Origin: Phycomyces nitens
Lineage: Eukaryota > Mucoromycota > Mucoromycetes > Mucorales > Phycomycetaceae
Assembly (NCBI GenBank): GCA_022702545.1
Contig: JAHRBC010000001.1
Location: 9,424,001-9,488,000 of the forward strand
DNA length: 64,000 nt
Reading direction: 5' to 3'
A model generated the notes under the pieces. That model was not told the origin of the DNA. It ran no database searches and saw only the letters and a list, made by a program, of their open reading frames with translations. Shown here one piece after another: positions 1,587-64,000 of this stretch. Position 1 is the first letter of the stretch, and each line of letters begins with the position of its first letter. A program made the position numbers and the translations under genes.

Positions 1587-1924
1587 CACTGGAAAAAGTA
1601 TACGATTTTATGGTGGAGAAATATCTGTAGTATTAAAGTACCATCATCGATTTATTGTTATTTCAATCTATATTTCTCCACCATACAAATATGAATGATA
1701 CTATAGGGAATGACGCCTGGTCTATCAGAGAAATAGGTCTTTAGTTCCGCTTGAAAAACCTTTGATACCCCCCAACTTTTCTGTTATTAAAGAGGTCTAG
1801 TTTATTTTATATTTCGTGTCGAGTAAGCCTATTATTTATTGTATTTTGTGCCATATAAAGCTAATCGCAATATCGCAATTTACAATCTATTCATATCCTT
1901 TACTTTTAACCTCAGTAACTCATC

Positions 1925-2068
1925 TCTTTAGGCTGAAAAGCAAAGGGAAATAGTGTCTTTAGACTGAAAAGCAAAGGGAAATAATGTCTTTAGACTGAAA
2001 AGCAAAGGGAAATAATGTCTTTTAGACTGAAAAGCAAAGGGAAATAATGTCTTTTAGACTGAAAAGCA
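1925..2068. repeat. Subterminal tandem repeat of E1, about 31 bp unit
   Basis: There are about 4.5 direct copies of a 31-32 bp unit with the core GACTGAAAAGCAAAGGGAAA, followed by TAATGTCTTT. It lies about 340 bp inside the left end of E1, downstream of the micro-exon gene. Short subterminal repeats of this sort are the binding sites for the accessory protein TnpA in plant En/Spm. Whether the E1 accessory protein binds here is inference. Confidence 0.8.
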
Positions 2069-2392
2069 CCATATCATACGTTTACATACAAGCCTCATTT
2101 GTTGATTTTTAAAAAATAAATTGTTTTTTATTTATTTTTTATTTATTTAATATATATATTTCTAGATGAATGCTCTAATCATATAATAATAATATATATG
2201 CTATTTCTAGAGTATTGTTTGATATTTTGCATCTAGCAAGACCAACAAGTTCCTACCTGATAGATATTGGGTACTGTCTTGGAGAAGAATGGTGCTATTT
2301 AATAGTAATAGGAGCAAAGATTAATTAAATAATCGTAATGGATCAAATTATTTGCTGTTGTACTTACAATGTTGATATCGTGAGTAGATGGA

Positions 2393-2960
2393 CTACTTGA
2401 TAGATTCATGAGAATATCTCAGCATATTAGCTGTCAGTTGAGATTGTCTAAGAATTGTAAAGTTATTAGTATTCTAGATATTCATATATACTATATTATC
2501 AGCGGTTTTCTTACCTGTGTGATTGTTTGTTCAGGCATGCGGATGAGATTCTTAATATATCTAATAGAGAATAGAACATAGTTATATATGTATAAGTAAA
2601 GAGATATATATAATTTGTAATAATATAATAGCTTACCATGATGTTTGATTACAAGATTGAGTGACATGCAAAGCTGTGATGACTGGAAGCATCAAGTCAT
2701 TAGTAAAGAGAAGCTTTGAGCAAATATTATTTTATGTTATTAAACCATGTAAAATGACCAAAGAGAAGAAGCTTGTTGATGATCTGTAAAGATAATGGCA
2801 AAATTATTAAGTAATTACATAAAATAATAAGAATAAAATAATTACCAGTATGTGTATAAGAGCAAGAGGCAAAAGAGAAAGAACAAAAAATAATTTGAGT
2901 TCCAAGGTGGTTTACCCCTAAAAAAAGTGCGGTCTCTAAAATCAATAATCCCAAAAACAT
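2393..2960 (-). CDS. E1 third gene: micro-exon protein with hydrophobic N-terminus, 99 aa predicted
   Basis: I do not recognise this protein. Five exons fit consensus splice sites and keep one reading frame: 2960-2846, 2783-2746, 2682-2637, 2560-2515 and 2447-2393. The first exon encodes a hydrophobic start (MFLGLLILETALFLG) resembling a signal peptide or anchor. A second hydrophobic stretch with two cysteines follows. The protein ends HESIK-stop. The gene is divergent from the accessory gene at 3175, with about 214 bp between the two starts. Exon order and phases (1, 0, 1) parallel those of the third genes of E2, E3 and E5. A secreted or membrane role is inferred only from the N-terminus. 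Spliced cDNA would settle the model. Confidence 0.5.
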
Positions 2961-3174
2961 AATATAATCGTCATTTTCATTTTACAGTTAGACGCTTTAT
3001 TTAATCAATAAAAGACACTAATTAGTTTTAAGCAAGTCATTGTAAAATATGATTATATATTGTAGAATAAACATCAGTAACAGTTCATTATACTTCTTTA
3101 CTTGTAAGAAACATTATAATATCATAAAGATAAAATATTAATAATTGTCATTTAAACATTTATTCATATAGAAA

Positions 3175-4414
3175 ATGAACAACTTTGACATCTCCAAAAT
3201 CTCTACCAGTAGTCCTATCTATGTATCTATTATGCGTAGTGCTATGGCTAATGTCCAGAACAGTGAACTTACCACTGCATCTACTTCGGCCACTGTAACA
3301 GCAGAAGAGACATCCAATTACCAGGATGATAATGAAATCTGTAGCTTGCTAAACTCGGCAAATATCAAGATGGATTCTCTTGAAAATCAAAACAAGACAA
3401 TTGCAAGTGAAGTGGGTGATTGCAAGACGTCAATTTCGCAGCTTGAGAAGGTCATTGATAGACTTGTCACTGGCCAAATCAGCATCAAGGATATTTTGTC
3501 TGGTGGAAATACTCCTGCAAGAACGATTGCAGTGGCCAGTTTGGTACCTCGGGGTGAGGAACCCTATGTTGTTGGAAAGAGATATCCAAAGATCTCAGTA
3601 AGTCTTGACTAGACATAAAATCAATAAGAAGAGTATCTAAAACCAATTTATAGAAATTAATCAATGGCTATGTCAAGTACCCAAACTTCACCAGTGACAA
3701 CCCTGTCAAGATAATGGAGAATGATGCCAAGCAAGGGTGGTCCTTGACTAGCTACTACAACAGTAGCTATAACAATGCACTGGCCATAAGGCTGATCACC
3801 TACTTGGGAAGACAAGAGGCAGGAAAGGCGATCCCTTTGAATGATCTTGTCAAAATGGTAAAAAACCATTTTGTCAACCAGGTGCGCCAGCGCCAGCGAA
3901 CCCCAGAGGCTGCAGACAGAAAAAGACTTGCATGCAGAAGACGACAGCGAACTGTTACGGTAAGTTTATATTTTAATCAATATAAAACTGTTATTTTCTT
4001 ACACACTTAATATACAGATTCTTCGTCGCCGAATCAAGGCATACAACAAGTACAGAGACCAGATTGACAGAGAGATGGGCAGAAAAAATTGCGACCATGC
4101 CCTCCAAAAGGAACCCATGTCTGAAGATGAGACTGATGGAGAAGATAAGGTAAAGACCTTTCGCCCTAGCTGGAGAAGTGATGAGGTAATTATTTTAGCA
4201 TAGTTTTTCATATTAAAATTCTATATCTTTTATTGATACACCTTATTATATTCAATAGCTCCAGACTTTTATAGATCTTGTTGATGATTTTGCTTCCCAG
4301 TCACTAAAGAAAAAGGGAAGCTCCATTTTGAAACGCGTCCGAGTAGTTCGTCAAAAGGATGTACCAAAGGATTTAGCAGTCCCATTGGCCGCGTGGACAA
4401 TAAATAATGAATAA
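3175..4414 (+). CDS. E1 accessory protein, 350 aa, four exons
   Basis: Exons are 3175-3597, 3654-3959, 4018-4185 and 4259-4414. All introns are phase 0 with GTAAGT- or GTAATT-type donors, and the frame is open to TAA. Exon 1 encodes a polar, coiled-coil-like region. Exon 2 (306 nt, 102 aa) is the conserved core, with a GWS motif, an NNALAIRLITYL helix and a basic tail. Exon 3 ends with the family signature PSWRSDE after an acidic MSEDETDGED stretch. Its stop lies 85 bp from the convergent transposase stop. By position it is the counterpart of plant TnpA, the DNA-binding partner of the transposase. That role is inference; the family is unknown to me. Confidence 0.8.
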
Positions 4415-4499
4415 ACTATCTATTTTATGTTTTATATTTTTTGGCTATCTTTTGCTGCAGATACTTTTGTGAGATAAGGATAGGTAAAGATATTTATTT

Positions 4500-7400
4500 T
4501 TAAGCATATATTTTTCTAAGAACAGGAGCAACAATCATCTTAACATTTCCTGTCTCAGTTGTATGCTCACCAATGGCAACTGACAGCAAGATTCGGTGCA
4601 CTGGCAAGATATTTTGATAATCCCCTCGGGCAAAGGCAAACTCATTCAACTCTATCCCTTCATCACTTCTTGTGTTCAGACCAGATGACCTATACCATTT
4701 GACATAAGCAAAGGTATGATTGTCAGGTTGAAGAGTCTGGGGATTCACAAGCGAGTTGACAAACAAATACTGAATCTGACCAGTAAAGGCACTTATACCA
4801 CGGTCATTGTTCTCTTGGAAGATTGCCTGTATATATGACCCGCAGCGAACTGCACCATTGCTCCCTTTGTATATCTGGCCAAGCAAGTTGATCGATGGGA
4901 ACTTCTGGATCATATTGTTGACAAAGACATTGCCGAACGAAGCTTGCTGGTAACTGCGAAGAGAATCATCGTCATAGGAGTCTCTGTAGAACTCAAGAAG
5001 ATGCTCATACTCTTCTTCTACCATTCGTTCATATTGCCCTAGGGAAAGTGGGAAGGCGGACGAAGGAAGAGGTTCATTGCCTTTGATGTTGACAGTACTG
5101 AACTGCGCGGAATCAAGAAAGACTTTTAGGTCAAACCTAGGAGAAGCAACTTGGAAATATGGGGCGGTGGTGACAGTGGTGGTTGCAGTGGACGCATAGA
5201 CAATTGGAGCAGGAGGAGGAGTAAACTCGACGAGTTCAGAAAGCAATGCAATATATGATGCATTTCCAATTACGGCCATCATTCTACAAGCAATATCAAC
5301 CTTGCAAGAGTCCTCAAGATATTTTCGCATGAACGTGGCCTCAAAGCCGTCTCTCTTGTTCGTTGTGTAGTTCTTCAGTACACCATTGTACCTCTCGAAG
5401 CTGAAAAGCCAATAGCCGTATACTGGCCCAAAGTTGACGATCGTCTCATGAAGATGCAGATGTAGATGCATGTTAGGTGAGATAAAATCTGCACCATACA
5501 AGTTCTGACATCCTTGTCCAAACAACTCCAAACAGAAATGGGCTTCGGCTAACTCGTCTTCTGATATGCTGGGCTTGGACAAGTATTGGCAGGCGTTGAC
5601 GAAGCACATCCAATTGTCAAGATTGTTCCTTGGCAACCGGTCTTTCAAGAGGACAGGCGAGTATACCAGGCACCAGGACTTCGATTCGTCGGCCTTCATG
5701 AACAGGAAGTCCTTGCCAATCTTCTTCTTGAGGGTGCTCATATCTGGGGGAAGGACCATATTGTCAGCCTCTTGTTGCATATCGGCCAAGTCTCTGTTGG
5801 TGATCAGACCAGCTGATCTCCACTTCTCCATCACTCGCTTCGAGGTTCCCAAGAAGAGGTTATGCATCGGGTCAATGATGGTGCACTCGACTACATTAAA
5901 GTACTCAAGATTGTGGAGTTCCGACCAGCGGACTCCATTCTCCTTTTCCATCCTCTTTTGGTCTGCCTCACTCAATGCACGCTTCCAGGCCAGGGCATCA
6001 CGACGATTATCTGCTTCGGTTCGAGGCACCCACTCGGAAAAGACAAAACCAGAATAATCAACACCGCCATTCCCTGGGAGATGGGAGAACTGGCGATTGC
6101 ACTTGTGGCAGGCATTGGTGCTCATGTGGGACGTGAATCCGCATGTCTTGCGAGCAGCAGGAATGTCGCAGGCAACAAGGAAAAGAGCAGCACGGACAAG
6201 AGCACCAGAAGGACAGCGCACAGTAGGGATCACCACACCCACATACAAGGATTGGAGCTCGGCAACAAGAGGACGGAGGTAGTGATCGATCTCACTGGTC
6301 TTGGCTTCTTTTGGGCCAGGCATGAGGCCAACAAAAATGGTGTTCTCCTTCTTGTATCGTTCGTCTCGTGGCAAGTTGTTTATGGACATGTAGATTGCCC
6401 CACAAGAGTAAGTAACCCCATCAAAAGGTTGAAACCAATCGATGTTTAGAGTCAACATGATTGATCGTTCATGAGCCACGAATTGCTGACCATTGCTGTC
6501 TTCCAGATTGCTCCACTTGGCACCATCATAGACATCAAACATCATGCCTGCAACTTGCTGTCTATGTCTCCAGTGATTGATACTGCTTTCGAATCCAGGG
6601 TGACAGAAGAGAACGGACAAGGCAGAAATCAAGGAGTTGTACATATACACCTTCTTTGGCAGTGCTACGTTTCTCGAAGGCTTGAAGAGATCGGTGCCAC
6701 ATATACCGCCAGAAAGTCTTCTGAAGTTGCAGCACTGGGGAACACCGTCAAACTCCATGTATGTCTTGTGGCACTCGCCACACACCACGTAGCACTGGAC
6801 ACCTTTGCAGACTTGGTTGAATCCTGTCATGGAGGAAAGACCACTCAAACTCAATGGCAGACGGAATGATTCGCCAAAGTGCGCCAAAACCTCATTGAGG
6901 AACTTGATCAAAATTGCTCCTCCAGAGTTTACAACATATTTTGATATAAAAAAGGTGGCAAAGGCAGCAATGAAAGCATGGGTGTTATCCGCTGGCATGT
7001 TGGAGGATGAGAATTGTTCTATTTGGGTTTTGTATATTAATATATGATATCTATGTTTTTCTTGTACTTTTACTAACCTTCAAATTCTTCAGCTTCATAT
7101 TCAGAGCCTTCCATTGTATCAAGCTCAATGATATCCTCATCTTCATTTTCAGCTATAAACAAAAATTGGTAACAGACACAGGTAAGTTTTCCATTGTTTT
7201 TTTTGGAGCAAAAAAGTAAATATTCAAGTGGCTGCAATTTATTATGCAATTTGAATAAAATTTTATACTTACATTCAACATGAGCATCAACATCATGGAC
7301 CTCGGCATCAATCTCCATGTTATTGTCATTCTCCATCTGAATTGCTTCAGCTGACAATGCTATATTTTTTAAAATGTTTAATTACACTTTGAAATGTGAA

Positions 7401-7568
7401 CAAATTATATATATATTACTTACAAGAAGCTGTCTGCATAAAATGTCTGACAAGATCGTTATCAGCATGTCTTCGTGCTGTTTGGGCAGATACTGCTACA
7501 AATCCTTGGACATCGAGAGAGCAGACTGAGCACTGGCATTGAACTTCGTTATTGAAAGTGTTGTACAT
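4500..7568 (-). CDS. E1 tnp2-like CACTA transposase, 941 aa, intact
   Basis: The exons are 7568-7424, 7359-7273, 7152-7078 and 7018-4500. Every junction keeps phase 1 and no stop interrupts the frame. Exon 1 encodes a Cys-rich module (CQCSVC, then RRH) that looks zinc-binding. Exons 2-3 are strongly acidic. Exon 4 is the tnp2 catalytic region: NIDWFQPFDG (Asp about 296), GLMPGPKEAK, GFTSHMSTNACHKC, IDPMHNLFLG (Asp about 485), and GPVYGYWLFSFERYNG (Glu about 644). I propose these three as the DDE triad; E4 has identical spacing of 189 and 159 residues. It would cut and join the element ends in the nucleus. Intact, so E1 may be autonomous. Confidence 0.9.
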
Positions 7569-8217
7569 ATTGTTTAAAGAGGTTATAGGATTGATATAAA
7601 GAAAAGTGGTTCAGGAACATAGTTTATTTTGCTTGTTTTATAGTTCAGGAACCATTTACATTACGTACATGCCGTTATTATAAATATTAACAAATTCACT
7701 TAATGATTGTATTTGGAAATTGACATTATTTCATTTTAAATATATGACTATATACCAAGTAGTTGTTTTGTATATACATCTTTTAATAATATGATATCAT
7801 GTCTATTTCTCCAACTCTTCATTAACCAAAGTACATCGTCATTAAAATATACTTTAACTAAATATATATTTCAAGTAGTCTCAGCTGCGCACTCTTGCCC
7901 ATATTTGATAATTTATTTTCAACATCCCCAAGAATATTAATTTCGCGACCTTCAAAAGACAGAGAAAATATCGTAGTTGAATAATCAACAAAAATAAAGA
8001 CATATTCTAATGTCCATCCAATAGAACTACCAAATATTCTTAACGCCGTCTAAAGTGAGCAATCAAGAAAAGGGCTAATCCAAGACCTATACTCCCCTCG
8101 TTTCAATTGATGTATTCAGAGTTGAAATCGGGTATTTTTTGCAGTGTAATAAGTGCATAACAATCAAATTAATCTAATAATCCCAGAAAATAGAAAGTAA
8201 CAATGCAGATTACTTAC

Positions 8218-10526: not shown

Positions 10527-11429
10527 ACTAAAGATCGGTGTATTTAACGCCAACGGTCTGCGGCCCAAATTGGTGAATGTGATAGATGCTTGTGAGACGA
10601 ATGATATTGACATTCTCTTTGTTACAGAGACTTTCCTGCCTGAGAGCAATTATGCTCTTCAGTGCCCTTGGATCCAGATACACAACTTTGACACTAAATT
10701 GACAACGGAAAAGCCAGTGGACGGCATATCGATCCTGATAAGACCAGACTTTCCCCATCACGTACACCCCCTCGCAATCATTAACCCCCATATTGTCTCA
10801 TGTAGGATCGATCCCTATACTATACACTGCGTATACTTCCCACCGCGATTGTCTCAACAAGAGGTCGAAGACACTGGGAAAACGGTGGGCTATTCTACTG
10901 TGCACAGTTAACTGAGAACGTGGAGAAAGCTGAAGCAAATTTGCAACTCAACACGTTTTTTTGTGATCACCTTGAAAATATTGTTTTATTGTATTTAATT
11001 GGCTCGGATATAAAGAACACACTATGGCGAGAGGAGTGGGAACAGCTACTGAAACGGTAACATAACTGCCGTTTTTTCTGATTTTAGACTGCTTTTTCTC
11101 CGCAGATTGTGGTTAAAAGGTAATGTCATCTATCCCGATTCATAAAAGTTGCATGGAATCTCTTTTCCTCTGGCAATGAGGTAGTTGTAGTACTATAGAA
11201 AGGGCTCGTAAAATTTTAGGTAACGTTGTTTATCGAAATGAGCATTTTATTTGGTGTTGAAGATGTTGCGCATTCTTGAGAAAAATAATTTTTGTCCTGT
11301 GTGAACGAAACGGTAACATAACTACCGTTTTTTGAAACCAAATTTTTGTTTTTGACATTATTAGCTGCTTTATTTTATTTGGTGTCCGTATAATAATATA
11401 AAGAAGTATAGAGAGGGCATTATAAAGAA

Positions 11430-11990
11430 TGAATTATAGAATAGAGAGGCTACTCATGGTGACGCGTCAATTATTCTTGAATATGTAGTACAGTGCAATA
11501 AAATAGAATTATTTCCGTCTGGTAGGTATTGATTGAGTCGTTGATGTTGGACGTCATCTACATTAACAATTGCAAATGTCGGTTGTAGTATATAGCCCGT
11601 TGTACAAAGTACGGGCTGCTACTTTATTTCTGCTACATACAAGTCATCGTTTGCATTGCCGTGCTCCTTCATGAGTTTTTTCTAAAGTAACAAAGTATTG
11701 ACTAAAGTCTTAATCTCTATACTAAAAGTAGAGATGAACAATACTAATGAGCTGGTTTTCATTAGTTATATTGTGATTACTAGGTAAGCATGTACAAATA
11801 GCAAGTGATTCTTACTTTGTGTTTTTACTAATACTATATTTATTTTCTACAAGGACAAGGGGGTGTTGGGTGGTGATTGTTGGTGCTAATCTTGCCGATT
11901 GGGTATTTAAATGAAAAATGCAAAGTTGAATCCGTCCGATGATGGACATTAACAATGACAGTGGAAACATCAACCTCCATAGCATTCAAA
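11430..11990 (-). pseudogene. Decayed tnp2-like transposase C-terminus in X
   Basis: The reverse strand matches the end of the transposase relic of copy Y (30235-30624). The better-preserved parallel copy at 27530-27660 reads VNVDDVQHQRLNQYLPDG, against VNVDDIQHQVRLIQYPP in Y. The intron acceptor region near 11800 (ACCTAGCAATCACAATATAA on the reverse strand) also corresponds to that of Y. Multiple stops and indels make it non-coding now. Confidence 0.55.
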
Positions 11991-14389
11991 TCAGTATGTC
12001 ACAGGTAATAACTAAACAGAACTTCATTTATACTATTCTTATGCCATGTATAACATTAATATTTAAATAGAAAAATTGACTGAAAAGCTTACACAGTTGG
12101 TCACCACTTCTCCCATTGAAAATATCCCAAAAACGAGCTTTAGTATATGTATGTGGTTACAAAAGTTTAATATTATGATACATACTCATTGCTATATTGA
12201 TATAGCCGCGAATTTCAAAGTATCTAATGAGCTTATCCAGTTTACTTATAATTCTCTCTATGAATTGAGTGGAACAGCTTTGTAATGGGCCTCGGCGATT
12301 TATTATATGAAAAAAGGTGTGTCAGGTAATTTTAAATAGTTTAAAAGAGACCGAGATATAGTCTTGCTATAAACTTGTTGGGAAAGTAAGTTGCGCAGAT
12401 TCTTAAAGTGTATCTTATGGAAAAGGTAATAATCGATTGTAACAACAATAAAATACTATACTATGATTTAACTTGTGTTTTTATTTTATCTGGCAACGCA
12501 AAAGTTATATTAAGATACAAGGGCCATTCCTTTGTTCACAATGTAAAGGATATGGTTATTATCCATGCTTGGCAAGTATCGGACAGCAAGCTATTTTATT
12601 AATATTTTTACCAAAAACCTTTGCAGTCAAATGAAGATTGATCAACCCAAAGGGACATTCAAAAGTCAATAGTTTGTTAAAGTGTTTGGTTTGTATATAT
12701 TTTTCATTTATTATAAATGGATATTTGGTACAAAAAGGGATCTATTGGACAAATACCTTGATTAGCTTGGTAAGTTAGCAATTGATACAGGTGGTGGTCT
12801 CAAAGAAAAGAGTAAACTTCATTTACATAATATGCTTTATCATTAAGATCAAAAAATACGGCACAAGAGAACCCTAAAGAATAACCTTTGTTTTTGTTAA
12901 TATTTTTCTCAAACCATCCTTTGACTATGAATCGCGGCATCAACTAAAAGCATGGTCTTATATTATCAAACACTATTTAATTGACAAGAACACTATCCTA
13001 TGGCCATAAAATAATATAATGGTCTATCACAGAATCAATATAAATATTATAGAATGCTGTGCACCAAAAGACTTGGAAAAGGCTTTACAATCAATAACCA
13101 AGCTCATAAATAAATAATAGAGAATAATAAAGTAAGTTGACTCTTTAATATATGTTTTGAATACACATTATAGTTAATACAATATTATTTATCACAATAT
13201 AGCAGCAAAGTGCAAGTCGTTCTTTTCTTTTTTGAAGATGAGATGTTGCAACTTGGTGATGGCGTCGAATTAGCAATCATGACAGATGTGCAACGGGTGA
13301 TTGCTTTGTTGATCATCTATTGCTAATCTAATGCCAATATGATATTTCTACTCTTTAATATAGCTCTATACCGCCAAAAATGAGTATTGTGTAAGTGCTA
13401 AGCAATAAAACAAGGGTTTAAGATTGTTCTTTTAGGCGACTCTTATTGGCCCTGTAGCATTTTTTAGCATATGCTTAGTGTGCTTTCTTTTTTCTTTTTT
13501 TTTGCTTCTCTTGTCTTGTCTTTGCAATGACTCTTTGAATTAAAACCAAATGAGCCTCCTTCATGTAAGATCGGCACGGTTATAAACACCTGATTGACAT
13601 CCCGATTGAACCATCTTTAGCTCGATTACCTTTGATTTAGGAATGAAATGCAGCTCGCTCTTTTTTCCCGCAGAAACAAAAGAGCGAAAACTTTTTACGG
13701 CTATATTACAATACGGTTTGTCCTTTTTACACTTGGCAATCTCTGTAAGATATACACTTTTCTTTTCTAATGAGCTGATTACTCTGTTTGCTACAATGAG
13801 ATTCGAATCAGTTTTGAATCATATGATTTGAATATGCCAAAGTTGATTTTCTATGGTAAGACGATTGTCTAATAATTATATTATTCTTCAACTAATTTTT
13901 CAGTACATATTCTATTGACCTCCTATTACATATAGTGTTTATTTCTGGAGATCCCTTTCAGTATAATCATTCAAAACAAGAGGCATGGTATAGTAATTGA
14001 CAAGCATAATATATACTTGTAAGCAATACAAAATAATGTACTAGGTTTATATGATCACTTCTTTTTCTAACCACAATGAATTTTTAGCAATTGATGAATG
14101 CTAAGGATCATCTAATGTATATCAACGTAGTATTATTATGCGTGTATAGCTTATAACAAAGGTTTGTGCTATATATGTTTTATAATATTAAATAGCATTA
14201 GTTTTAAGTATTTTTCTATAATAATTGTGCACAAAATACGGTATGAATTAAATCAAGACATTCTATAATAAAGAATAAACCATTCTTTCAAAAGAATGCT
14301 CGTAAAAGAATAGCAGAACCCATTATCAAATAGAGTACTATAAAAGAGAGGTTATAGTGTATAACGGAAGAATTTTTGGTTGGATAAAA

Positions 14390-14738
14390 AAACGGTAGTT
14401 ATGTTACCAAAACGGTAGTTATCTGCCGTTTTTTTATTAGCAAAAAACGATAGCTACTACCAAACTCGCCTTACACAGGGTCATATCCACCGTTTTGCCC
14501 CACCAAACAAACGGTAGCAATGTTACCAAAACGGCAGATAACTACCGTTTTTTTAGTGAAGAAAAACAGTAGTTATGTGACCAAAACGGTAGTTATCTGC
14601 CGATTTTCGCCACTATAAAAACGGTAGCTACTACCAAATTCGCCTTACACAGGGTCATATCCACCGTTTTGCCCCACCAAAAAAACGGTAGTTATGTGAC
14701 CAAAACGGTAGATAACTGCCGATTTCTTAGCCGTAGTG
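14390..14738. repeat. Subterminal CGGTAG repeats at the right end of X
   Basis: AAAACGGTAGTTATGTGACC and close variants, in both orientations, fill this stretch. A longer unit containing TTCGCCTTACACAGGGTCAT occurs twice (about 14462 and 14639). Dense short repeats inside the termini are characteristic of CACTA elements and probably serve as transposase or accessory-protein binding sites. The same repeat block occurs inverted at 56535-56720 and in part at 27700-27880. Confidence 0.8.
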
Positions 14739-14835
14739 ACAGGAGATAATATTTTTATACTCTTATAAAACCGTAGCAAATAAAGCATATGTAACACTTG
14801 TTTCCTTTTTGTTTAAACTTCAATACACAAATACC

Positions 14836-17800: not shown

Positions 17801-17968
17801 GAACATGAAAGTGTTGACATTTGTAGGCCACAATTTTCTCCAGCCAACTACCACAGTATTGTGCCTGTACATCGCATTCTGTTAGAAGTAGCACTGGCTG
17901 AACATATGACCCAAAATAATGTAAAGAAAATACTGGTTATCCCTTTACCTAAAAAAATATATGCTTAA
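14836..17968 (+). pseudogene. E2 tnp2-like transposase, broken
   Basis: Exons fit 14836-14983 (unusual GC donor, GCAAGT), 15037-15078, 15157-15366 and 15430-17968. Exon 1 has the Cys-rich KCFCPRC...QRH module; exon 3 is a Asp/Glu-rich repeat. Exon 4 carries the family motifs NVDWFQPFDG, GLMPGPKEPK, IDPMHNLFLG and GPVYGYWLFSFERYNG. Three lesions are visible. A missing base just before the MPENP start puts exon 4 out of frame with exon 3. In-frame TGA codons replace Arg at 16523-16525 (CGA in E3) and at 16616-16618. A Ser/Ala/Pro/Tyr-rich low-complexity insert at 17220-17310 separates the catalytic part from the C-terminus. E2 would need a transposase supplied by another copy. Confidence 0.88.
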
Positions 17969-18113
17969 GTTTTAATAAAATATGTCTTTACTCATTTTTA
18001 AACAAGATTGCATACCAGAATAAAATAAACAAGTATAGGATTTGAATGAGTCTTTAGGATTGAGTGCATGAGAGGAGCAAAGATGAGGTTTTTTTTATTT
18101 TTTTTAAATTTTT

Positions 18114-47152: not shown

Positions 47153-47248
47153 CCAAACAGTTTTTGTATGTATATGGTATTTATTTTTATTTCAATTGAA
47201 CAAAAACTAATAATTATAATCGAAATATACTTTACCATATTCTAGAAA

Positions 47249-48420
47249 ATGGTTAACCAAAGAAGAACAATTGCTCCTCGTCCCACTCCTGCTGGTCCTG
47301 CTCCTGCTCCTGCTCCTGCTCCTGACATGGAACAGATTATGGCAAAGCTTTCTGAGATGGAAGGCAAAATGACAAACGTCGAAGTGCAAGTGGGGTCTGT
47401 AAAGGCTCAACTCAACGTTGTTGTGGCTGGTAATGCTTCAGCCATTAGAGCAATCGGTGCATTGGGTAGTGCCCATAACACTGCTCTTGTCAACTCTCCT
47501 GCCATTCCTGTTGCACTTGTTGCTCTTCTACCAGTTGTGCCAACCAAGCAGACAAACAACGATGTCTATGTAAGTAGCAAATTATATAGTATGTTATCAA
47601 TTCATTATCTCATATACTGTGTCAGACGGCAATTCGCAAATTTATGTGGAAGCCAAAGTTTTCGTCAAGAATAGCTGCAGAGATGTTGGCAAACAATAAT
47701 AAGCCAAAGTGGAATACAAACGTTCCTTTCAACCAAAGTCCAAACAAGGAGTTAGTTGTTAGGATCCTCAACTACTTGGAGCCCAAGTTTGAGAGCAAGG
47801 GAATGAGGAGAAGCGATCTGTACAAGAATCTTCACACCAACTTCAGGAGCCAAAGTTCCAGAGACAAGAAGTCTTCTTCGGAGAAAGCTGCCGTGAACAC
47901 TCGTTCAAGAAGGGCAAACCGTGCAGGTGAGGTAAGATATACTTTAAATAACTAATAAATATTTAATATCAAAGAAGCAGTATTAACTGAGAATTTTAGA
48001 GCCTTTCTCGGCGCTTGAATGCTTACCTTGACAATGAGGACACAATCAATGAGATGATGGGCAAAGATTGTGCCAACATGATAATAAAGGAGGCAATGTC
48101 CAAGGGTGAATCTGACATAGAGACATCTGAAAGTGGTACCAAACGTGTCATCCGTACTGTTCGCCCAGGATGGAGAAGTGATGAGGTAAATAATAATAAG
48201 GCAATAACTGGGTTACGTGTCTGAATTGTTATATAAAATATTAATACTTGTATTTCAGTTTAATAGACTCATCACTATTGTTGACTCTCATGTCCTTGAT
48301 GGAATGGGTTTGCATTCCCATCAATTCTTGCCTCGGGTTTTTAAGAGTGTGTCAAACTCAGCGGCCCCAAATGACGTGGTTTCCCGCCTCCCACAGTGGG
48401 CTTTTAGAAACGATGTATAA
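47249..48420 (+). CDS. E5 accessory protein, 324 aa, intact
   Basis: Exons are 47249-47569, 47626-47931 (306 nt), 48000-48185 and 48259-48420, phase 0 and open to TAA. Exon 1 has a Pro-Ala repeat (GPAPAPAPAPAPD) and a coiled-coil segment (QIMAKLSEMEGKMTNVEVQV). Exon 2 has NQSPNKELVVRILNYLEPKF and GMRRSDLYKNLHTNF, suggesting helices, then basic KAAVNTRSRRANR. Exon 3 has MSKGESDIETSE and ends PGWRSDE. Exon 4 ends LPQWAFRNDV. It is convergent with the transposase, stops 129 bp apart. A TnpA-like role is inferred from position and the basic, helical core. Confidence 0.82.
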
Positions 48421-48549
48421 ATAAAGTTGTTGTTTATATTTTCTCACCCACTTCCCCAAGAACGTAATACCGTCAATATATATAAAGTATATTTTTTGGT
48501 GCCTTAATTTTGGTTATCTTTAAAAGAAGAAGATATTTTTTATTTTATA

Positions 48550-51500
48550 TTAGGCGCAGATTTTTTTGGGAAGAGGGATGACGAGCATTGTTTTCCTATT
48601 AGTTCGAGTGATTTGCTGTCCAATGGCAACTTCTAACAAAATCCTATGCACTGGAAGAATACTGTTCAAGTCATCTGGAGAATGCCTTGGGAGATACACC
48701 TCAACACCTTCATTCTCTCGCGTTCTATCACAGGTTGTGACAAACCATTTAACAAATGCGAAAACATGTTGATTGTCATGAACCATGCGAGTCAGGTGGA
48801 GATCATCAACTGGTGGTGGCACGAACTTGTGTGTAAAGAGATACTGAATCTGGCCTGTATATGCATTTACAACGTCCTCATTGCTGCCAACAAACAGTGC
48901 TTGTATAAACGACCCTCCATTTCCTTGTCTGTTTGAACCGCGATATACTTGGCCAAGTAAGTTGATGGACTTCAACTTTGTGATCTCATTATCAACAAAG
49001 GAAAACGGGGAGAAGGCGTGCTGATAGCTGGTAAGACTGGGAAGGTCATAAGCATGCTTATAATAATCCAGCAAATGTGGATAATCGATATCACCAATTA
49101 ATGTTTTCATTCCAACTTGCAGAGGAAAAGCCGAAGGAGGAAGAGGCTCGTTACCCTTTGCAGAATCCATTGTGGTCAGAGAAGCATTTACAAAATCTTG
49201 CAAGTTGAACTGAGGATGATTGATTGGCAAAGTTGTGGCTGGAAGTGTGGGTGTAGATACGAGCTTGGCAAAGACAGAAGAGAATGGGATCTTACTGGAG
49301 TATCCAAGGACTGCTTGCACATAATCGGCCTTGTATGCTTCTTCTACGAAATTCCTCATGTAAGTTGCCTCAAAACTATCCTTTCTGTTAGTGCTCACGT
49401 TCTTTAGCAAACCGTTGTATCGCTCGAACCCAAAGAGCCAATAGCCATACACTGGTCCAAAATCACGAATGGTCTCGCGAAGATGGAGGTGCAGATGCAT
49501 ATTGCAGGTGAGGACACTAGGAGGGTAAAGACGCTCGCACTTTTGACAGAATTTTTCAAGGTAGTCATGGGCATCGTCAAGTTCTTCAAATGATAGGGAT
49601 GGCTTTACAAGGAGACGGCAGGCATCGACAAAGTCCATCCAGTTTCTGAACTTGTCATCATTGAGAACATCTTTCAACAAGACGGGAGAGTACACCAGCA
49701 CCCAGGACTTCCATTCGTCAGCTTTCATAAATGAAAATCCCTTTCCAATTTTCGCTGTTAATGAAGTGTATGAAGCTGGCAGGATCATTGTCTTGGCGAT
49801 TTGCTCCATGTCATTAAGTTGTCCATTATTAATATCGCCACCAGCGATCCACTTGTCCACCATCCTCTTCGCCGTACCCAAGAATAAGTTGTGCATGGGA
49901 TCAATGATCGTTCCACGTACTAGATCAAAGTATCCAAGGCGATGCAACTGCGACCATCGAACACCATTTTCGACCTCCAGCTGATGCCTTTCTGAGGGCG
50001 TACTTGCACTCTTCCACTCCTCAGCATGCACCCTGTTTTCCACACCATTACGAATAGACCACTGCAAATAGTCGAAACCACGGAAATCCACACTGCTTGT
50101 CCCAGCAAGACGACTGAATTGACGGCTGCATTTGTAGCAGGCGTTAGTGCTATTGTGGGACGTAAATCCGCTTGTTTTTCTGGCTGCTGGAATATCACAT
50201 GCCACCATAAGGAGCGCAGCACGGACAGTTGTTCCAGATCCACATTCAAAGGTTGGAATCGTCATTCCAACGTACAACTGCTCAAGGTCATCCACCAACG
50301 GCTTGAGATAGTTGTTGATCTCATAAGATTTGGGTTCCTTTGGTCCAGGCATTAACCCAACCAAGACGACGTTCTCTGGTTTGAATCTTTCATCTCTGGG
50401 CAAGTTGTTGATTGCCAAATATATAGCACCAGAGGAGTGTGTTACACCATCGAACGGCTGAAACCAGTCGATGTTTAGAGTCAACAGAAGAGAACGAGGG
50501 CGGGCAACAAATGAAAGACCATCACTGTCTTTCAACTCCTTCCACATCTTGCCATCGTAAATGTCGCACATGGTGTCTGTCACCTTCAGCTCGTCGTTCC
50601 AGACGCCGATCTTCTGCTCAAAACCAGGACGAAGAAAGAGAACCTTGAGTGCATCTTTGATGGACTGATACACAAAGATTTTCTTTGGCACCATGGCACC
50701 AGACGTCGACTTCTTTGTCAGCTCACAGTTACAAGTTATATTTGCGCCTATTTTCACAGAGCTGCAGAGAGGGGGAACGGAAATAGATTCTTCGTATATT
50801 TGATGACAATCTGGACATGACACGAATCGTTTGATATCTTTGGTGATATCACTAAAACCCGTCATCTTCTGAAGACCAGCAAGACTTGTTGGGAGCTGAA
50901 AGTCTTGTCCGTAGACTGTCAAGAGCTCATTGACAAACTGGATCAATACAACGGCGCCCTTGTTGACTGCATAACGGGATGCAAAAAGAACAACGAAAAT
51001 GGCAATGGCCCTGTGCACTGGATTTTCGGGCATACCAGGAGCACCAAAGGGTTCTGTTTTAAAAAAGGAAAATTATTAACACTCAATTTTGGCATGCTTC
51101 TTTATGATAGTTATTCAATACTGACCTTCGCCGTTGAACTCCTCAACATCAATCTCCTCGACATCACTCTCCACATTGTCGCCATTGTTGCTGTCATTGA
51201 CAATCTCGGTGTCATCGCAATTGACCTCATTGTCAACCAAATCATCGTCAGACATCGGGACGGAATCCAAAAAAGGTAGGTTAGCCTAACCGCCCATTGT
51301 TTCCATAGATTCAGATTCAAACATCGGGATTGCTACAAATATGGAATAGATTAGTTTATTGCCCTTAAACTAGTTTTCAAATAAATATTTTTTACCCTCA
51401 ACATCAACATCCATAATGACACTTTGTGTGCCTGAGGTTCAATTAAAGAATAATGGTTATTATTGCGCAGTAAATATAAAATTAATACATACTACTCTCA

Positions 51501-51637
51501 GTTCGTCCAGCCTCTTCAATTCTTGCTCTTTTGGCATGACGCTGATAATTGCGTCTGGATACCATAGAGAACCCTTCTTGGTTACCATTGCATTTGTTAC
51601 AGTAACAGGCAGTGTTGTTTTGGGAAGCAGAAGACAT
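48550..51637 (-). CDS. E5 tnp2-like transposase, one stop in an acidic exon
   Basis: Exons are 51637-51493, 51431-51396, 51332-51126 and 51053-48550, phase 1 at each junction. Exon 1 has ACYCNKC...YQRH. The catalytic exon 4 is fully open: NIDWFQPFDG, GLMPGPKEPK, GFTSHNSTNACYKC, IDPMHNLFLG and GPVYGYWLFGFERYNG are all present. An in-frame TAG at about 51286-51284 interrupts exon 3 before its acidic part. Either this is a recent nonsense mutation or translation begins later (Met in MSDDDL, or MPENP at 51033). A start at MPENP would lose the Cys-rich module but keep the nuclease. Confidence 0.85.
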
Positions 51638-54543
51638 ATTTTGTGTGATTCGATTGTAAGATAAAAAAGGAAACAAGTGCTTCATATGTTTTATTTGCTG
51701 TCAATTTATAGACAAAAAAAAACTATTGTATTTTACTTGTTTGCCCGAACCAATAGGATCTGTTAAAAAGTCTTTTTTTATTTGAATAAAAAAAATCTTC
51801 TGAGTTGAAAAAAAGGCCTATATTTCCTACACCTTCAAGTACTCTTGGTGCACTAGTAATCCAGCCCATTTTTCCAGTGATATGTGTTTGAGGACAGCTG
51901 TTGAGGAAGTAGCATGCCCACCAACTATCATGCGCAAGAATTTGTCCTGGATCTTTTCAAGCTGGGTAAGATCCTTTTGTAATAGATGTGAGATAGCAAG
52001 GCCATACTCAAATTTGGGGCGAACAAAAGTGCGATAGAGTCTTGAGCTCAAAAGGAGGGAAAAGCCAGATCTGCAGGCCCCAACAGCATTGAGGGTAGCC
52101 ATGGTAGCCAACGTTCCAGAACGGCGATGTGTGACAATAGAGGGGCCAAAAATACCCTTATTACAAAAGGGCATACCAAGGTAGATGAACTCATCTACTG
52201 CAGGGAGTAACTCACCATACAGAGAGAGATTGGGATGGGGAAGAGAATGGGAAGGAGGGTAAAGGATGGCACATTTTGAGGGACTCCAACGATAGCCAAG
52301 TGCATATGAATGTTGGGCAGCAAGGTTGAGCATACTCTGGACATTAGCAGCAGAACCAAAGATTGCTACATCGTCAGCAAAAAGGAGCGAGTTTATGGGG
52401 GTGGGGGCAACAGGATGGTCAAAACCATTGGCACCAGGTGGGCCAAGGAGGGACTGGTAAGACTCCAAGGAGGAGGGGGACTTGGAGGGGACATAGGTGG
52501 AGGAGAGGGGGGAGGCAACTGTGCGCAGGAGAGGAGGTAAGGAGTTGACATAGATGGAGTACAGATGGGGGCTGAGAACTGAACCCTGGAGAGCACCGGT
52601 AACAGGGGCAAAGGAGTGTGAAGAGAAGTTTCCAAGGAGAACAGAAATGGAGACATTGTCAAAGAGGTTGACCAGAAGACCAAGAAGAGCAGGGGGAGTG
52701 GATCGTTTGGCCAGAGCATCCCAGATGACACGTCAATCTACAGTGTCATAAGCAGCTTTGATATCCAGAAAAGCAACAACTGGGTAATGGTTATGACGGT
52801 GGAAATAAGCTTTCATAAGGTCATGAAGGCAGAGAGCTTGATCCATTGCACCACGTCTAGGGCGAAATCCACCCTGGGCAACGTCAAGAGGGGGAGAGAA
52901 CTGGTGTAGGAGGGGAGAGAGGCACATTTCAAGCAGTTTTCTTAGGACAGAAGTGAGTGAAATTGGCCTATAGTTGGCAGCCTGAGTAGGATCTCCCTTT
53001 TTGTAGATAGGGAACACCTGGGCTTGACGCCAAAGGAGAGGGACATAGGACCATTGCCAGCATAGGGTGAAAAGGAGTGCAAGGATAGGGGCAATATGGG
53101 GACGAAGGGGCTTAAGCATTTCAGCACGTATATGATCTGGACCAGGGACTTTGCGGTTAGGCATGAATCGCATGCATCCCTCCACCATTGAAGAATCAAG
53201 TGGGGAGTCAGCAGAGGCAAAAGGCAGAGCAGTAGAGGATGAAGGAGGGGGTGGGCGCGAAACAGGAAGAAGATGTCCACTATAGACAGAGGCAAGGTGG
53301 TCACACATGATAGAAGCTGCATGGGCTGCACCATCATCATGTTGGAAAATGTGCTGGGGTTGGCGCCTACGTTTCAGTTGCTTGATCTTTGATGTGGCCT
53401 TGGCAAAATCACGTTCCATTGATCTGCAAAAGGCATGCCAGGATTGACGTTTGGCAGTTTGGACTTGGGAGCGAAATTCAGTCTGGGCCTTAGTGTGCTT
53501 ATCCCACCAAGGGATCTTGTCAATACCACTGGCACACCACCACTTCTTATAACAGAAATTGCGATGGTCAGCAGCTTGTTGCAAGGAGGGGTTCCAGAAG
53601 GCTTTCCAGTGCTTAGGACGTGAGGGATGCTTGCCAACTGAACTGGTCAGGGAGTCATAAAGGAGAGAATTGAACTGATCAGTGAGGAGATCAATTGGAA
53701 GACAGGTAGTTGGAGGGTCTTGAGTGAGTGTAAGGAGAGTGTGCTTGAAGTCAGTAGACATGGTCATAAAAGTATTGGCATAGAGTTGGCTGACATCAGG
53801 TTCTTGGAGGCGTGAGAGGTTCCATGTTTGCCTCAAGGGGGGTGGAGAGGAGGGGGAGGGGGAGTCAAAATCATATTGGAAAGAGAGGCATAGTAGGCGG
53901 TGGTCAGAGTTAAGGGAGAGGTCAATGTGGATATCAAGAGAGGCGTTTTGGAGGGTCATATTGGTCAAGAATAGGTCAACAATGCTGCTGATTTCAACAT
54001 TGAGGCGGAAGGAGAGGTAAGTGGGGATAGAAGGAGCCAGGTCACCATTGACAACATGAAGCTGGCGCTCTTCAATCCATTGGCATAAGGCAAGACCACG
54101 TGAATTGGTTGCATAGTCACCTGTGAGAGAACCCAAGCGTGCATTCAGATCACCACAGATAATAGTATCATGTGTCAAAGGAAGGGAGGATAGAATGGCA
54201 AGAGCATCAGGTGTAGACATAGTGGGGGGGAGGTATAGGCATATAATACGGAGTGAGCCAATTTTGACAGCAAGGGCATATTTGGAGGGCATAGGGACTT
54301 GGGTAACTGGGTAAGGACAGGAAGGGGAGATGAGAACTGAGACTCCCATGGAACCACGATATGAGCCAGCAACTGGAGAACCATAAAGATGGATTTGAGA
54401 CCAGGAAGTAGGAATGAGAGAAGGAGAGAGAAGCCAATTTTCTGTAATAAAAAGCATATGTAAGAACTGACAGTGTTGAAGAACATCATGAATAGCACGG
54501 CGTTGAAGCCCATTAGCATTCCAAAGTCCTAATGAGATGTCAC

Positions 54544-59054: not shown

Positions 59055-59639
59055 CACTACAAAAATTAAGTGGTTTCATTTATAGCAAACTACTATATTA
59101 TCTTACCATTAGTAGACTGAAGTTAAACATAATAAACTTTTTTATTTTTGACGGCGATTATAATATTCAATATGTTCTATTGGATAGAATAATAAAGTAG
59201 AGTCTTTTAGGCATGATATTCGTTTGTAATTCATTTATACTCCTTGTAACTATGTCGCAGAATCAATTAGAATAGTGATTTTTATAAGCAAACAAGATTT
59301 TTTACAAGATAGCATCTAGTTTATTATTGTAAAACCCCTTTTGAAATAATTAATAGCTTAAAGAGTATATATTTCTCTTTTCGATTTATTATAAGTGATG
59401 TCAGTTCTGTAAGAGAGATATAATGACGTATATTATAAAAGGCATATAAACAAACACATGTTCACAATCCTGTAACCAGGAATGAGACAACTATTTCTGC
59501 TTATAGACAAATCCCAGTTTTGGGTGTCAATGCTAGCTATGTCATTTTGGCAGTTGATATTCTAAAAATGATATATATTAAAATATGTTCCTGAGCCATT
59601 TGCCTTTCTTGTCAATTAAAAAGACTATTAAAAATCAAT

Positions 59640-62600
59640 ATGTCCAGCTACTCAAACAATCAAGTCGAATGCAAGTGTGCTATCTGCTCTTTTAATAGCA
59701 GAGGCTTTGTCATGGTATCAACTCAAACATACCAAAGACATATCACCAATGATATTGTAAGAAGCTTTCAAGCTAGAAGTTCTTGTAAGTATATGCCGTA
59801 AATTATTATTTTTTGTCATAATTAACCGTTTTCTTTAAAATATATAATCGTATTCTAAAGCTTCTCTGATGGTGAATGAGAATGACATGGAGATTGACAT
59901 TGAAGTCAATGATGCCGAAGAGAATGTTGAATGTAAGTATATAATTTTATTTATACAATATAATAAATTGTAATGACTTGCAAGGATATTCTTTATGTAA
60001 CAGAATACGAATACTTACCTTTTGCTCTTGCTACATTATTATTTTTAGTTGAAAGTGAAGATGCCGATGACAATGAGTTGAATGGTTCGAACGATTCTGA
60101 AGATGAGGTTGAAGAACTTGAAGGTTAGTACAAAATAAATAAGCATATATCATATATTAATACGAAAACCAAACAGAGCAATTTGAGACGTCTATGCCTG
60201 CAGACCCTCTTCATGCCTTTGTTGCTGCCTTTGCTGCTTTCTTCATCTCGAAATATGTCGTCAATTCGGGTGGTTCGATCTTGATCAAGTTTCTGAACGA
60301 GGTCCTGTCTCACTTTGGCCAATCATTCCGCCTTCCATCTAGCTTGAGCGGCCTCAACTCAATGGCTGGCATGACAGCTTTATCCAAGAGTATCCAGCGT
60401 TTTGTGGCATGCGGCGATTGTCACAAGACATACTTGGAGTCTGAAGGTGTTCCCCAATGCTGCGATTTCGAAAGGCTCTCTGGAAATACTTGTGGAAGCC
60501 AGCTCTTCCAGGCTCCTCCAAAAACACGTCCTTGCCTAACAAGGTATACATGTACAGCCCAATCATCAGTGCATTGTCAGTCCTCTTTCGCCGCCCTGGA
60601 TTCGAGGAATCCATCAACCATTGGAGAGCAAGACACCAAGTTCCTGGAATGATGTTCGACATCTATGATGGTGCCAAGTGGAGTGAGTTGAAAGATGGCA
60701 ATGATAGGCAATTCGTGGATCATGAGCGATCTCTCATGCTCACTATGAACATCGATTGGTTCCAGCCTTTCGATGGGGTTACATACTCTTGCGGAGCCAT
60801 CTATCTCTCTGTCAACAATTTGCCAAGGGCCGAACGTTACAAGAAGGAAAATGTTCTCCTTGTCGGTCTAATGCCTGGACCAAAGGAAGCCAAGACAAGC
60901 GAGATCAACCACTACCTCCGTCCCCTTGTTGCCGAGCTCAAGTCCTTGTATGTGGGTGTGGTGATGCCAACGGCGCAGTGTCCTTCTGGTGCCTTGGTTC
61001 GTGCCGCCCTTCTTCTTGTCGCCTGTGACATCCCTGCCGCCAGGAAAACATGTGGATTCACGTCCCATGCAAGTACTAATGCATGTCACAAGTGCAACCG
61101 CCAGTTCTCTCGCCTCCCAGGCAATGGTGGTGTTGACTATTCTGGGTTTGTCTTCTCCGAGTGGGTGGCTCGCACTGATCAAGAGAATCACCGTGATGCT
61201 GTGGCCTGGAAGAACGCGTCCAGTGAGGTAGAAAGAAAGAGGATGGAAAAGGAGAATGGAGTCCGCTGGTCGGAACTCCACAATCTTGAGTACTTTAATG
61301 CAGTGGAATGCACTATAATAGATCCAATGCATAACCTCTTTCTGGGAACCGCCAAAAGAATGATGGAGAAGTGGAGATCGACTGGTTTGATCACAAACAG
61401 AGACCTGGCCGCCATGCAAAAGGATTCTGAGAAGATGGTCCTCCCTCCTGATTACACACCATTGAGAAAGAAGATTGGCAAGGATTTTCCATTCATGAAG
61501 GCAGATGAATGGAAGTCCTGGTGCTTGGTGTACTCTCCTGTTCTCCTGCGCGGCCGTTTGCCCAATGTCCACCTTGGCAACTGGATATCGTTTGTCAATG
61601 CCTGTCAGTACCTTGTTAAGCCAAGCATTTCCATGGCCGAGCTGGAGGAAGTGCATAGCTCTCTTGAGGCATTTTGCAGACAGTGCCAAGTATTGTATGA
61701 TGCCCAATTGATTTCGCCAAACATGCACCTCCATTTGCATCTTCAAGACACCGTCAGCAATTTTGGACCGGTTTATGGATACTGGCTCTTCAGCTTTGAG
61801 AGATTCAACGGCATTCTCAAGAATTTCTTGACAAACCAGAGAGATGGCTTTGAGGCCACATATATGAAGAGGTACCATCAAGACGCGTACAAAGGAGACC
61901 TCCTGCGTATACTTGCACCAGTTCTTGTGCCTTCACATGCCAACATCCTTGCTGAGCTCACTGCCATCACTGCCACCACTGCCACCACCATTTCCACCTT
62001 GCCATTTGATCTGAACGCATTTCTTGCTGCTGCAGAGACAGACTTTGACATTGTGAAGGGCAACGAGCCATTGCCACCATCTGCGCTTCCTTTGTCTTTG
62101 AAGGAAGAGGTATCGATGAAGGAGAGCGAGTACCAGTACCTTTTGGAGTACTATCGTGAGGTGTATGACAATGAGCAACTTGTTCATTATCGCCAGGCCA
62201 GTCCCTCACAAACCATTGTCAACAACCGCATCCAAAAATTCCCATCGATCAATCTTCTTGGCCAGGTGTATAAAGGGAGTAATGGAACCCTGCAACGTGG
62301 TTCATTCATCCAGGCACTGTTCAAGACAAGCAATGATCAGTATACAAATGCATACACCGGCCAGATTCAGTACCTCTTTGTGAATACTGCCACAAACTCA
62401 TTTGCTGGTCAATCGAGTCGGCATGTGTTTGCATATGTACATTGGTATAGAGAGGCTAATCTGCAACCCAGGAGTGATGAGGGCGTGGAGGTGAATGAGC
62501 TGGAGTTTGAACCGAGTAGTCTTCAAAATATTCTTCCTGTACATAGGATTTTGTTGTCTGTAGCTATAGGTGAACACATAGGTGATGGAGGTCGAGTGAT

Positions 62601-62640
62601 GATGTGTGTTGTTCCCTTGTTACGTAAGATCTATATATAA
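59640..62640 (+). pseudogene. E6 tnp2-like transposase with one frameshift
   Basis: Exons are 59640-59784, 59861-59932, 60049-60123 and 60177-62640, phase 1 junctions. Exon 1 has CKCAIC...YQRH; exons 2-3 are acidic. Exon 4 starts in frame with MPADPLHAFVAAFAAFFISK. It then changes frame between about 60457 and 60540: the first frame ends shortly after QLFQ, and the second carries SLPNKVYMYSPIISALSVLF onward. The rest is open, with NIDWFQPFDG, GLMPGPKEAK, IDPMHNLFLG and GPVYGYWLFSFERFNG. A single small indel makes this copy inactive; the reading frame is otherwise complete. Confidence 0.88.
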
Positions 62641-62831
62641 TATTCCAAAATAAAATAACGTCAATAAAGACTTACAATTAAATATCATTAAATATTTCTA
62701 TATTATTTAATGTATATTTCACATATAGTATAACTTTGATTATTTTATATATTTGCCTGTAATGCATCCATCAAAAAGTGCATACGTATACAAGAAGCTA
62801 TTAAATTCTTAGTTAAAATTTTTTTATTTAT

Positions 62832-63996
62832 TTATTCAGTAGAAATACACCACTCTGGTAACGTGACTGACATATGCTGAGAGACACTCATTTCCTTTAC
62901 AAAACGAACACGCTTCAATAAGCTGTTGGATTTCTTTTGCAACCTTTTGACAGAAAATTTGTCAACCACATTGATAAACTCTTGGAGCTATTTTTTAAAC
63001 AAATGTTAGTTAGTGAACTTAAAGCTAATATAAATTTTAGTTATATAGTACATTACCTTATCACTTCTCCAACTGGGACGGTGTGCCCAAACTTCATTCT
63101 CAGTGTCAGATTCATCGTCAGACATCACCTCTAATACAAGAACATTGCTGCAATCCAAGCCTCGCATCAATCTTGTAATCTCCTTGGTGTATTTCTGATA
63201 CGTAACAGTGCGACGTTTGAGAAGCTAGACATAAATACTATATTAGAATATATAATAAAACATTAGCCTATTTATTTTTATTCTTACAGAGATCTTTCGA
63301 TTGCGTCTTCGTGATGTTCTTTGCCGAGCTACAATCTTATCAGGTGATGTTTTGTAATGTCGAACCTGGTTCCTGTAGTGATTCTTCACTATTCTTGCAA
63401 TATCATTTGTTGAAACACCAATTGCACTTTGCTGTTGTCGCAAGTACGAAATCACGGCCATTGCAAGGGCTTGGTTATAGCCTTCCTTGAAGGTGCCATT
63501 GGTTGACCATCCTGGCTTCTCATTGTTCTCGGCAACTTTTAATGGATCTGTGTCCGTGAGGTTTGGGTTCTTCATGTATTTATTGAGTGCATGCTAATAT
63601 ATGTCTGTTAGATATATTGGTAATTATATTTACTATCATTGATTTACTTACAGAGATGCCGACGTGCCGTTTTCCAGGAGTATACCCTTCCTCCATCAAA
63701 GACGAAAAGCTTGCTTTTATCGCAGAATCTGCCTCAGAAATTCCATTCTCGGTGGACTTGCTGAGCTTGTCCTGGGCAGCCATGATCTCTTTGATCATTT
63801 TCTTGAGATAAATATTAATCTCGTTGGTGAGATTAATACCATTTTCTACACCACTCATTCTCTTTGACATCTCAGCCATTTCTTTTGCCAGTGTTACAAA
63901 GTTTCCATTGTTGGCAGTCAACAGAGCAAGCATTCTCTCAGTCGCATCCATATCTTGAGGAATGCTTGGTGCCGTGACTGTAGTGGTGTCTGACAT
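62832..63996 (-). CDS. E6 accessory protein, 324 aa, intact
   Basis: Exons are 63996-63652, 63593-63288 (306 nt), 63224-63057 and 62987-62832, phase 0 and open. Exon 1 has a long amphipathic stretch (FVTLAKEMAEMSKRMSGVEN) likely to form a coiled coil. Exon 2 has KPGWSTNGTFKEGYNQALAM, STNDIARIVKNHYRNQVRHY and a basic RTSRRRNRK tail; the first half is closest to E1. Exon 3 has MSDDESDTEN and ends PSWRSDK (Lys instead of Glu). Exon 4 ends LPEWCISTE. It is convergent with the transposase, stops 191 bp apart. A DNA-binding partner of the transposase is inferred. Confidence 0.82.
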
Positions 63997-64000
63997 TTGT

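Follow-up and report, generated by a model that had tools for sequence, protein, structure and literature searches.

Six CACTA (EnSpm) elements, E1 to E6, lie in the stretch of Phycomyces nitens DNA analyzed here (the window, 64,000 nucleotides, C1:9424001-9488000), and they are built on one layout: a tnp2 transposase gene, an accessory gene that converges on it in all six elements, and a third, intron-rich unit that lies beyond the accessory gene and points away from it in E1 to E5 and, past the window, in E6. Searches of the whole genome (49 Mb, 11 contigs) confirmed the three-unit layout and showed that it recurs. Taken as a whole, the element belongs to a known kind, of which it is a variant; the surprising part is the unequal divergence of its third unit between families. 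We give roughly even chances to the whole reading, that is, cut-and-paste CACTA elements carrying tnp2, a TnpA-like helper, and a non-coding third unit that has been exchanged.

The ends of E1, E2, E3, and E5 came from a scan for CACT(A/G) termini paired with matching 3-bp flanks (Table 1). All six elements have inverted repeats beginning CACTA or CACTG and a 3-bp target site duplication, and the sequence-only reading was right that ends and duplications could be read from the letters. Its description of paired CACTG ends does not fit E6, which begins CACTA at 59055 (CACTACAAAA). E4 is inserted into the tnp2 gene of E3; its final base is C, in contrast to the G of the ten other copies examined, and its flanks then read CAA. 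E6 sits inside a copy of the E4 family; that copy begins at 58140 and picks up again in L029, the extension of E6. In 9 of 10 E4-family copies with both ends, the 3-bp duplications match. Counts of 9-mers common to both 400-bp ends in inverted order were 6, 4, 2, 9, and 0 in E1 to E5, with shuffled means of 1.9, 1.0, 1.3, 3.0, and 1.6, a weak signal with no dominant motif among the 9-mers common to the 400-bp ends of these five elements. The ends of E3 have 8 such 9-mers in direct order and are closer to the ends of E5 than to those of E2.

Table 1. Units of the six CACTA elements, in positions of the window
Feature	Positions	Strand	Remarks
E1, CACTA element	1587..8146	tnp2 on -	TIR pair, duplication TAA, paired-end scan
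E1 tnp2 main exon	4500..7079	-	open frame; small 5' exons to about 7570 by eye
E1 accessory gene	3175..4414	+	exons 3175-3597, 3654-3959, 4018-4185, 4259-4414
E1 third unit	2200..2960, approximate	-	
E2, CACTA element	10872..22175	+	duplication AGA, paired-end scan
E2 tnp2 main exon	15425..17968	+	open frame, in-frame stops
E2 accessory gene	18114..19324	-	four exons; two adjacent stops in frame
E2 third unit	19680..21760, approximate	+	exon pairs in six tandem units of 235 bp
E3, CACTA element, host of E4	32225..44887	+	duplication TAC, paired-end scan
E3 tnp2, split by E4	33033-33792 + 39959-41718	+	open frames
E3 accessory gene	41841..42953	-	four exons, spliced by pattern of E1/E5
E3 third unit	43330..44500, approximate	+	two exon-pair units
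E4, CACTA element nested within E3	33793..39958	+	duplication CAA
E4 tnp2 main exon	34645..37134	+	open frame
E4 accessory gene	37230..38461	-	split or degraded after exon 2
E4 third unit	38740..39420, approximate	+	
E5, CACTA element	45601..51879	tnp2 on -	duplication ATA, paired-end scan
E5 tnp2 main exon	48550..51072	-	open frame, PF02992
E5 accessory gene	47249..48420	+	exons 47249-47569, 47626-47931, 48000-48185, 48259-48420
E5 third unit	45970..47060, approximate	-	
E6, CACTA element	59055..64000 in window, runs on to 65605	+	duplication TAC
E6 tnp2, frame-shifted	60161..62640	+	open frame
E6 accessory gene	62832..64000	-	four exons, spliced from ATG at 63996
E6 third unit	about 64300-65100		outside window

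Copies of a second family, which has CACTACGG ends and numerous subterminal repeats of the AACGGTAG type, lie at 27700-31351, from 56535, and, inverted, at about 11421-14738 in the left part of E2; another copy starts at about position 550 of L038, where it lies in the accessory gene. The window copies of this second family have no tnp2 frame of 150 or more residues. Frames of non-LTR retrotransposons were recognized by eye at about 1-1586, 9006-10871, 22176-25431, 44945-45600, and 51880-55740, and E2 and E5 seem to lie inside copies of such retrotransposons. A tRNA gene (55662-55734) overlaps the upstream end of a minus-strand retrotransposon frame (55072-55740), which could reflect tRNA-targeted insertion. 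Just outside E1, at 8210-8761, there is a 183-residue frame on the minus strand.

The open-reading-frame list has tnp2 frames in all six elements, and the frame of E3 carries a stop in addition to the E4 insertion. Against Pfam, the 840-residue frame of E5 matches Transposase_21 (PF02992, E 6.1e-18); the frames of E1 to E4 and E6 align with it. By this homology, tnp2 is the transposase of these elements. In the E4 family, transposase variation at third, first, and second codon positions stands at 313:143:102, which served as a control for the coding tests below.

The accessory gene had been described as a four-exon gene in all six elements, and this holds for E1, E2, E3, E5, and E6, with the proviso that the frame of E2 has two adjacent stops; the E4 copy is split or degraded beyond its second exon. 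GT-AG junctions were traced for the exons of E1 and E5, and E2, E3, and E6 were spliced by the same pattern. Exons 2 and 3 measure 306 and 186 nt in E2, E3, E5, and L039, and in E6 an in-frame ATG is also found past the window, at about 64090. At about 37790-37850, exon 2 of E4 is followed by additional sequence that recurs in the E4-family copy of L029, which suggests an extra intron or a lesion common to copies. A search with the E5 protein returned seven homologues (P0001 to P0007, 37 to 94% identity). The closest is INT47_005588 of Mucor saturninus, 94% identical over its whole length; the other six, one from M. saturninus and five from Phycomyces blakesleeanus, are 37 to 47% identical. 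A WRSDE motif near the end of the protein is invariant in the seven homologues, and P0002 has a truncated UniRef label starting with "Homeodoma." No Pfam domain scored above cut-off in the accessory proteins of E1, E5, and E6, and an AlphaFold2 model of P0001 from seven sequences was poor (pLDDT 50). Accessory-gene variation in the E4 family is mildly skewed toward third positions (third:first:second, 75:63:43). From its position and a predicted N-terminal helix, the accessory protein may be an analogue of TnpA.

In the third unit, exon limits are predictions made in this analysis. Each of the 235-bp tandem units of E2 has one exon of 49 to 51 nt and one of 57 to 63 nt, and copies of the E2 lineage that are 96 to 99% identical carry six, five (L036), or four (L035) of these exon pairs, compared with two in E3, L039, and L040 (exons of 48 to 50 and 59 to 66 nt). 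Across E2, E3, L039, L040, and E5, the order of the donors (GGTATGTAAAT, AATGTAAGTAT), the acceptors, and AATAAA with its flanks is kept, even though the third unit of E5 is only 63 to 68% identical to those of E2, E3, and L039. Some sites are lost: AT replaces GT after the first 66-nt exon of E3, AG is missing ahead of the second exon in the second unit of E2, and L039 and L040 have no donor for the hydrophobic reading of E2. A scan for the donor/branch-point/acceptor pattern counted 8 in the third unit of E2 (shuffle mean 1.33; 0 of 300 shuffles reached 8) and found no excess in the other five third units, where 67 to 157 of 300 shuffles reached the count. None of the six accessory genes beat p 0.05 in the same scan either, so it has little power outside E2, and a splice-site weight matrix that drew on 18 introns of accessory genes proved too narrow for use. 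Outside E2, the micro-exon structure is predicted from splice sites that copies and families have in common.

The limits of homology between third units add to this picture. Homology blocks start about 145 nt (E2-E3) and 245 nt (E2-L039) upstream of the accessory start of E2 and stop 50 to 110 nt past AATAAA in every pair; between E3 and E5, homology comprises two blocks, one of 81 nt close to the first exon and one of 641 nt farther along. These limits, together with the ordered splice and poly-A signals, suggest the anatomy of a transcription unit whose promoter region would also serve the accessory gene. Rfam at its gathering threshold matched only the tRNA in the whole window, and at E 1 it gave no match in the E2 third unit, L029, L042, L046, or L048. 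Between the third unit of E1 and the right end of that element lies a 31-bp tandem repeat of 4.6 copies (1925-2068).

How general is the plan? The genome has 785 candidate tnp2 matches, of which the best 150 were scored, and 12 copies (L030 to L041) were picked among these 150 with varied frame lengths and blind to the third unit. Accessory exons are present in all 12 (13 of 13 counting E6), and the third unit in 11 (partial in L030 and L037); in L038 the accessory gene is interrupted by the second-family element, and the region beyond is out of reach. All 11 third units are E2/E3-related, so this sample says little on other lineages. For E4, the third unit itself was used to select copies: of 87 candidate places the best 40 were scored and 20 fetched, and 10 of the 20 have both ends with the third unit between them. 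At least 14 of the 40 are co-located with listed tnp2 matches, a lower bound because 150 of the 785 tnp2 candidates were listed. The third units of E1, E5, and E6 have 91, 417, and 162 candidate places (best 40 scored for each). Among the best 40 scored per family, many third-unit copies at different places are 99 to 100% identical, so the families look young. The sequence-only reading had claimed the fixed plan for E1 to E5 and the first two units for E6; both parts are borne out, and the third unit of E6 was found past the window. It had also stated that the plan would fall if the third unit were mostly missing or lay outside the ends; the 11 of 12 tnp2-selected copies and the ten E4-family copies show the opposite.

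The same reading had called the third unit a divergent micro-exon gene with a third, possibly secreted product. A divergent, intron-rich unit is there, with the scan significant only in E2 and some splice sites lost, but the tests made do not support it as a protein gene. In a micro-exon gene for a secreted protein, the exons that come after the signal peptide preserve the frame. Here, the exon pair of 50 + 59 nt does not divide evenly into codons, which means that the reading frame shifts with the number of units, and this number varies among copies; the start codon of E2 is absent in E3, L039, and L040; and single-base indels inside exons separate the E4 subfamilies. The T-rich first exons do translate as hydrophobic stretches. 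Thirteen open frames, each 25 or more residues long (E1, E4, E5, E6), gave no clear protein-level selection: nonsynonymous changes outnumber synonymous ones in each (for example, 11 to 3, 16 to 7, and 27 to 10), 5 of the 13 gain stops in some copy, and two lean to third positions on small counts (third:first:second, 8:5:4 in E6 and 12:6:7 in E4). No candidate homologue was found for the one 71-residue E2 reading that was searched. Over four families, and excluding their first exons, 119 of 1,175 exon sites and 64 of 1,051 intron sites are variable (odds ratio 1.74, p 0.0006); the direction is the same in each family, with E1 (p 0.43) and E5 (p 0.14) not significant alone. Part of this exon excess is base composition, because the difference has p 0.39 within G/C sites (p 0.015 within A/T sites). 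These tests thus give no clear sign of a conserved third-unit product.

What sets the third unit apart is how differently it has diverged from the rest of the element. In E2, E3, and L039 its last ~600 nt are 88 to 93% identical, introns included (distances of 0.07 to 0.12 in exons and 0.11 to 0.13 in introns), whereas accessory exons 2 and 3 of the same elements have dS of 1.6 to 1.8 with 48 to 49% identical residues and the transposases are 60 to 63% identical over 384 common columns. The longer third-unit blocks are less alike, at 79% and 85% (E2-E3), 82 to 83% (E3 with L039/L040), and 70 to 82% (E2 with L039/L040). E5, with a transposase 56 to 59% identical to those of E2, E3, and L039, is 0.43 to 0.51 distant over the same 600 nt. 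The pair E1 and E6 provides the counterpart: by transposase, at 61% identity, they are no further apart than E2 and E3, yet the likeness of their third units amounts to one stretch of 114 nt (68% identical, E 6e-4) and two scraps with an E value of 0.32. Their accessory proteins, however, are further apart too (36% identical, versus 41% for E2-E3), which tells against the exchange reading. In the transposase tree, E2 does not group with E3 and L039, but support is low (0.60; row L001 disregarded) and the tree is given no weight.

Constraint of the same strength on every family fails to yield this pattern, and exchange between the ancestors of E2, E3, and L039 does yield it. The third unit thus probably passed between these families, by gene conversion or recombination, once their transposases had diverged; the exchange would exclude the ends, because those of E3 resemble E5 more than E2. 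The main alternative is strong constraint limited to the E2/E3/L039 lineage and to the 3' part of the unit. Since the 88 to 93% covers this 3' part and whole blocks are lower, strong local constraint could explain it, and blocks that end 50 to 110 nt past AATAAA in each pair are what a functional boundary would give. We rank constraint alone second because E1 and E6, at equal transposase divergence, show little likeness. An internal identity of ~90% against transposases at 60% points to internal recombination among the CACTA families of one genome; if so, element phylogenies built from one gene may mislead.

In the mechanism that we propose, tnp2 would act as the transposase in cut-and-paste transposition, and the convergent helper would probably do the job of plant TnpA by binding the element ends. 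The third unit would most likely be a multi-intron, polyadenylated, non-protein-coding transcription unit, as its splice and poly-A signals indicate, presumably fired from the promoter region common with the helper gene, and it may control the element as RNA or as regulatory DNA. The strongest version of this proposal, a functional spliced non-coding RNA gene carried beside transposase and helper and traded as a cassette between families, is tentative and, taken by itself, somewhat unlikely. If true, such a traded cassette would add a third kind of component to the CACTA superfamily, and a working non-coding RNA would be a self-encoded RNA component with possible roles in transposition or in evasion of RNAi, a defence known in Mucor.

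Other accounts of the third unit draw on the same observations. It could be a passive by-product, in which a bidirectional helper promoter fires outward and the functionless RNA is spliced and terminated as the sequence permits. Exons no better conserved than introns, the lack of a conserved open frame or Rfam family in the units tested, and units of E1, E4, and E6 without extended match to E2 or E5 all fit that account, but a by-product would hardly keep the same place in all six window families and in 11 of 12 further copies, nor its splice sites at 63 to 68% overall identity, nor, in E2, E3, and L039, a 3' part whose likeness far exceeds that of the accessory gene (and, in the pair E2-E3, also exceeds that of tnp2); we consider it rather unlikely. 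Introns conserved as well as exons or better would also suit regulatory DNA, for example, helper-binding sites by the right end with an incidental intron-like pattern. The third unit occupies the right subterminal part, and plant CACTA elements have their TnpA sites in the subterminal part. The inverted 9-mers between ends show no dominant motif, however (this count covered the 400-bp ends and not the unit itself), and it would be difficult to account for ordered donor, acceptor, and poly-A signals if the unit were not transcribed, which leaves regulatory DNA with a low probability. A fast-evolving gene for a small, perhaps secreted, micro-exon peptide would turn the exon excess into positive selection: exons do change faster than introns, the first exons give hydrophobic stretches, and two open frames lean to third-position change. 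But the frame is not kept across repeat units, copies, or families, the start codon is limited to the E2 lineage, stops arise in some copy in 5 of 13 open frames, and the one reading searched has no homologue, so that we hold the peptide gene to be the least probable of these accounts.

Known systems close in design include the plant CACTA/En-Spm elements, such as maize Spm, which likewise have CACT(A/G) ends, a Transposase_21 transposase, and a second, non-transposase protein; the 3-bp duplication is also a feature of Spm. Among the titles and abstract openings listed from the open-licence literature, none describes a CACTA third unit of this kind, a weak negative. The homologues of the E5 accessory protein in M. 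saturninus (two) and P. blakesleeanus (five) are hypothetical proteins whose labels name no transposon helper. EnSpm elements of Mucorales, of the same superfamily and fungal order as E1 to E6, appear as copy numbers without a gene plan in the portion of the report available (PMC7928374). According to the accessible part of another source, SmTRC1 of Schistosoma mansoni and the animal and fungal TRC elements, including those of Rhizopus oryzae, have a Transposase_21 gene and a fast-evolving second protein, proposed as a TnpA analogue (PMC1636069), and in both components they are like the elements described here. SmTRC1 differs in that its TIRs begin CCC and its second protein arises by alternative splicing, and that part of the source does not describe the divergent third unit present here (PMC1636069). 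In Spm, as the same part relates, one transcription unit yields tnpA-tnpD by alternative splicing (PMC1636069). Rather than one alternatively spliced unit giving TnpA and the transposase, the P. nitens elements have the helper as a separate convergent gene, on the opposite strand and with four exons of its own, plus a divergent third unit.
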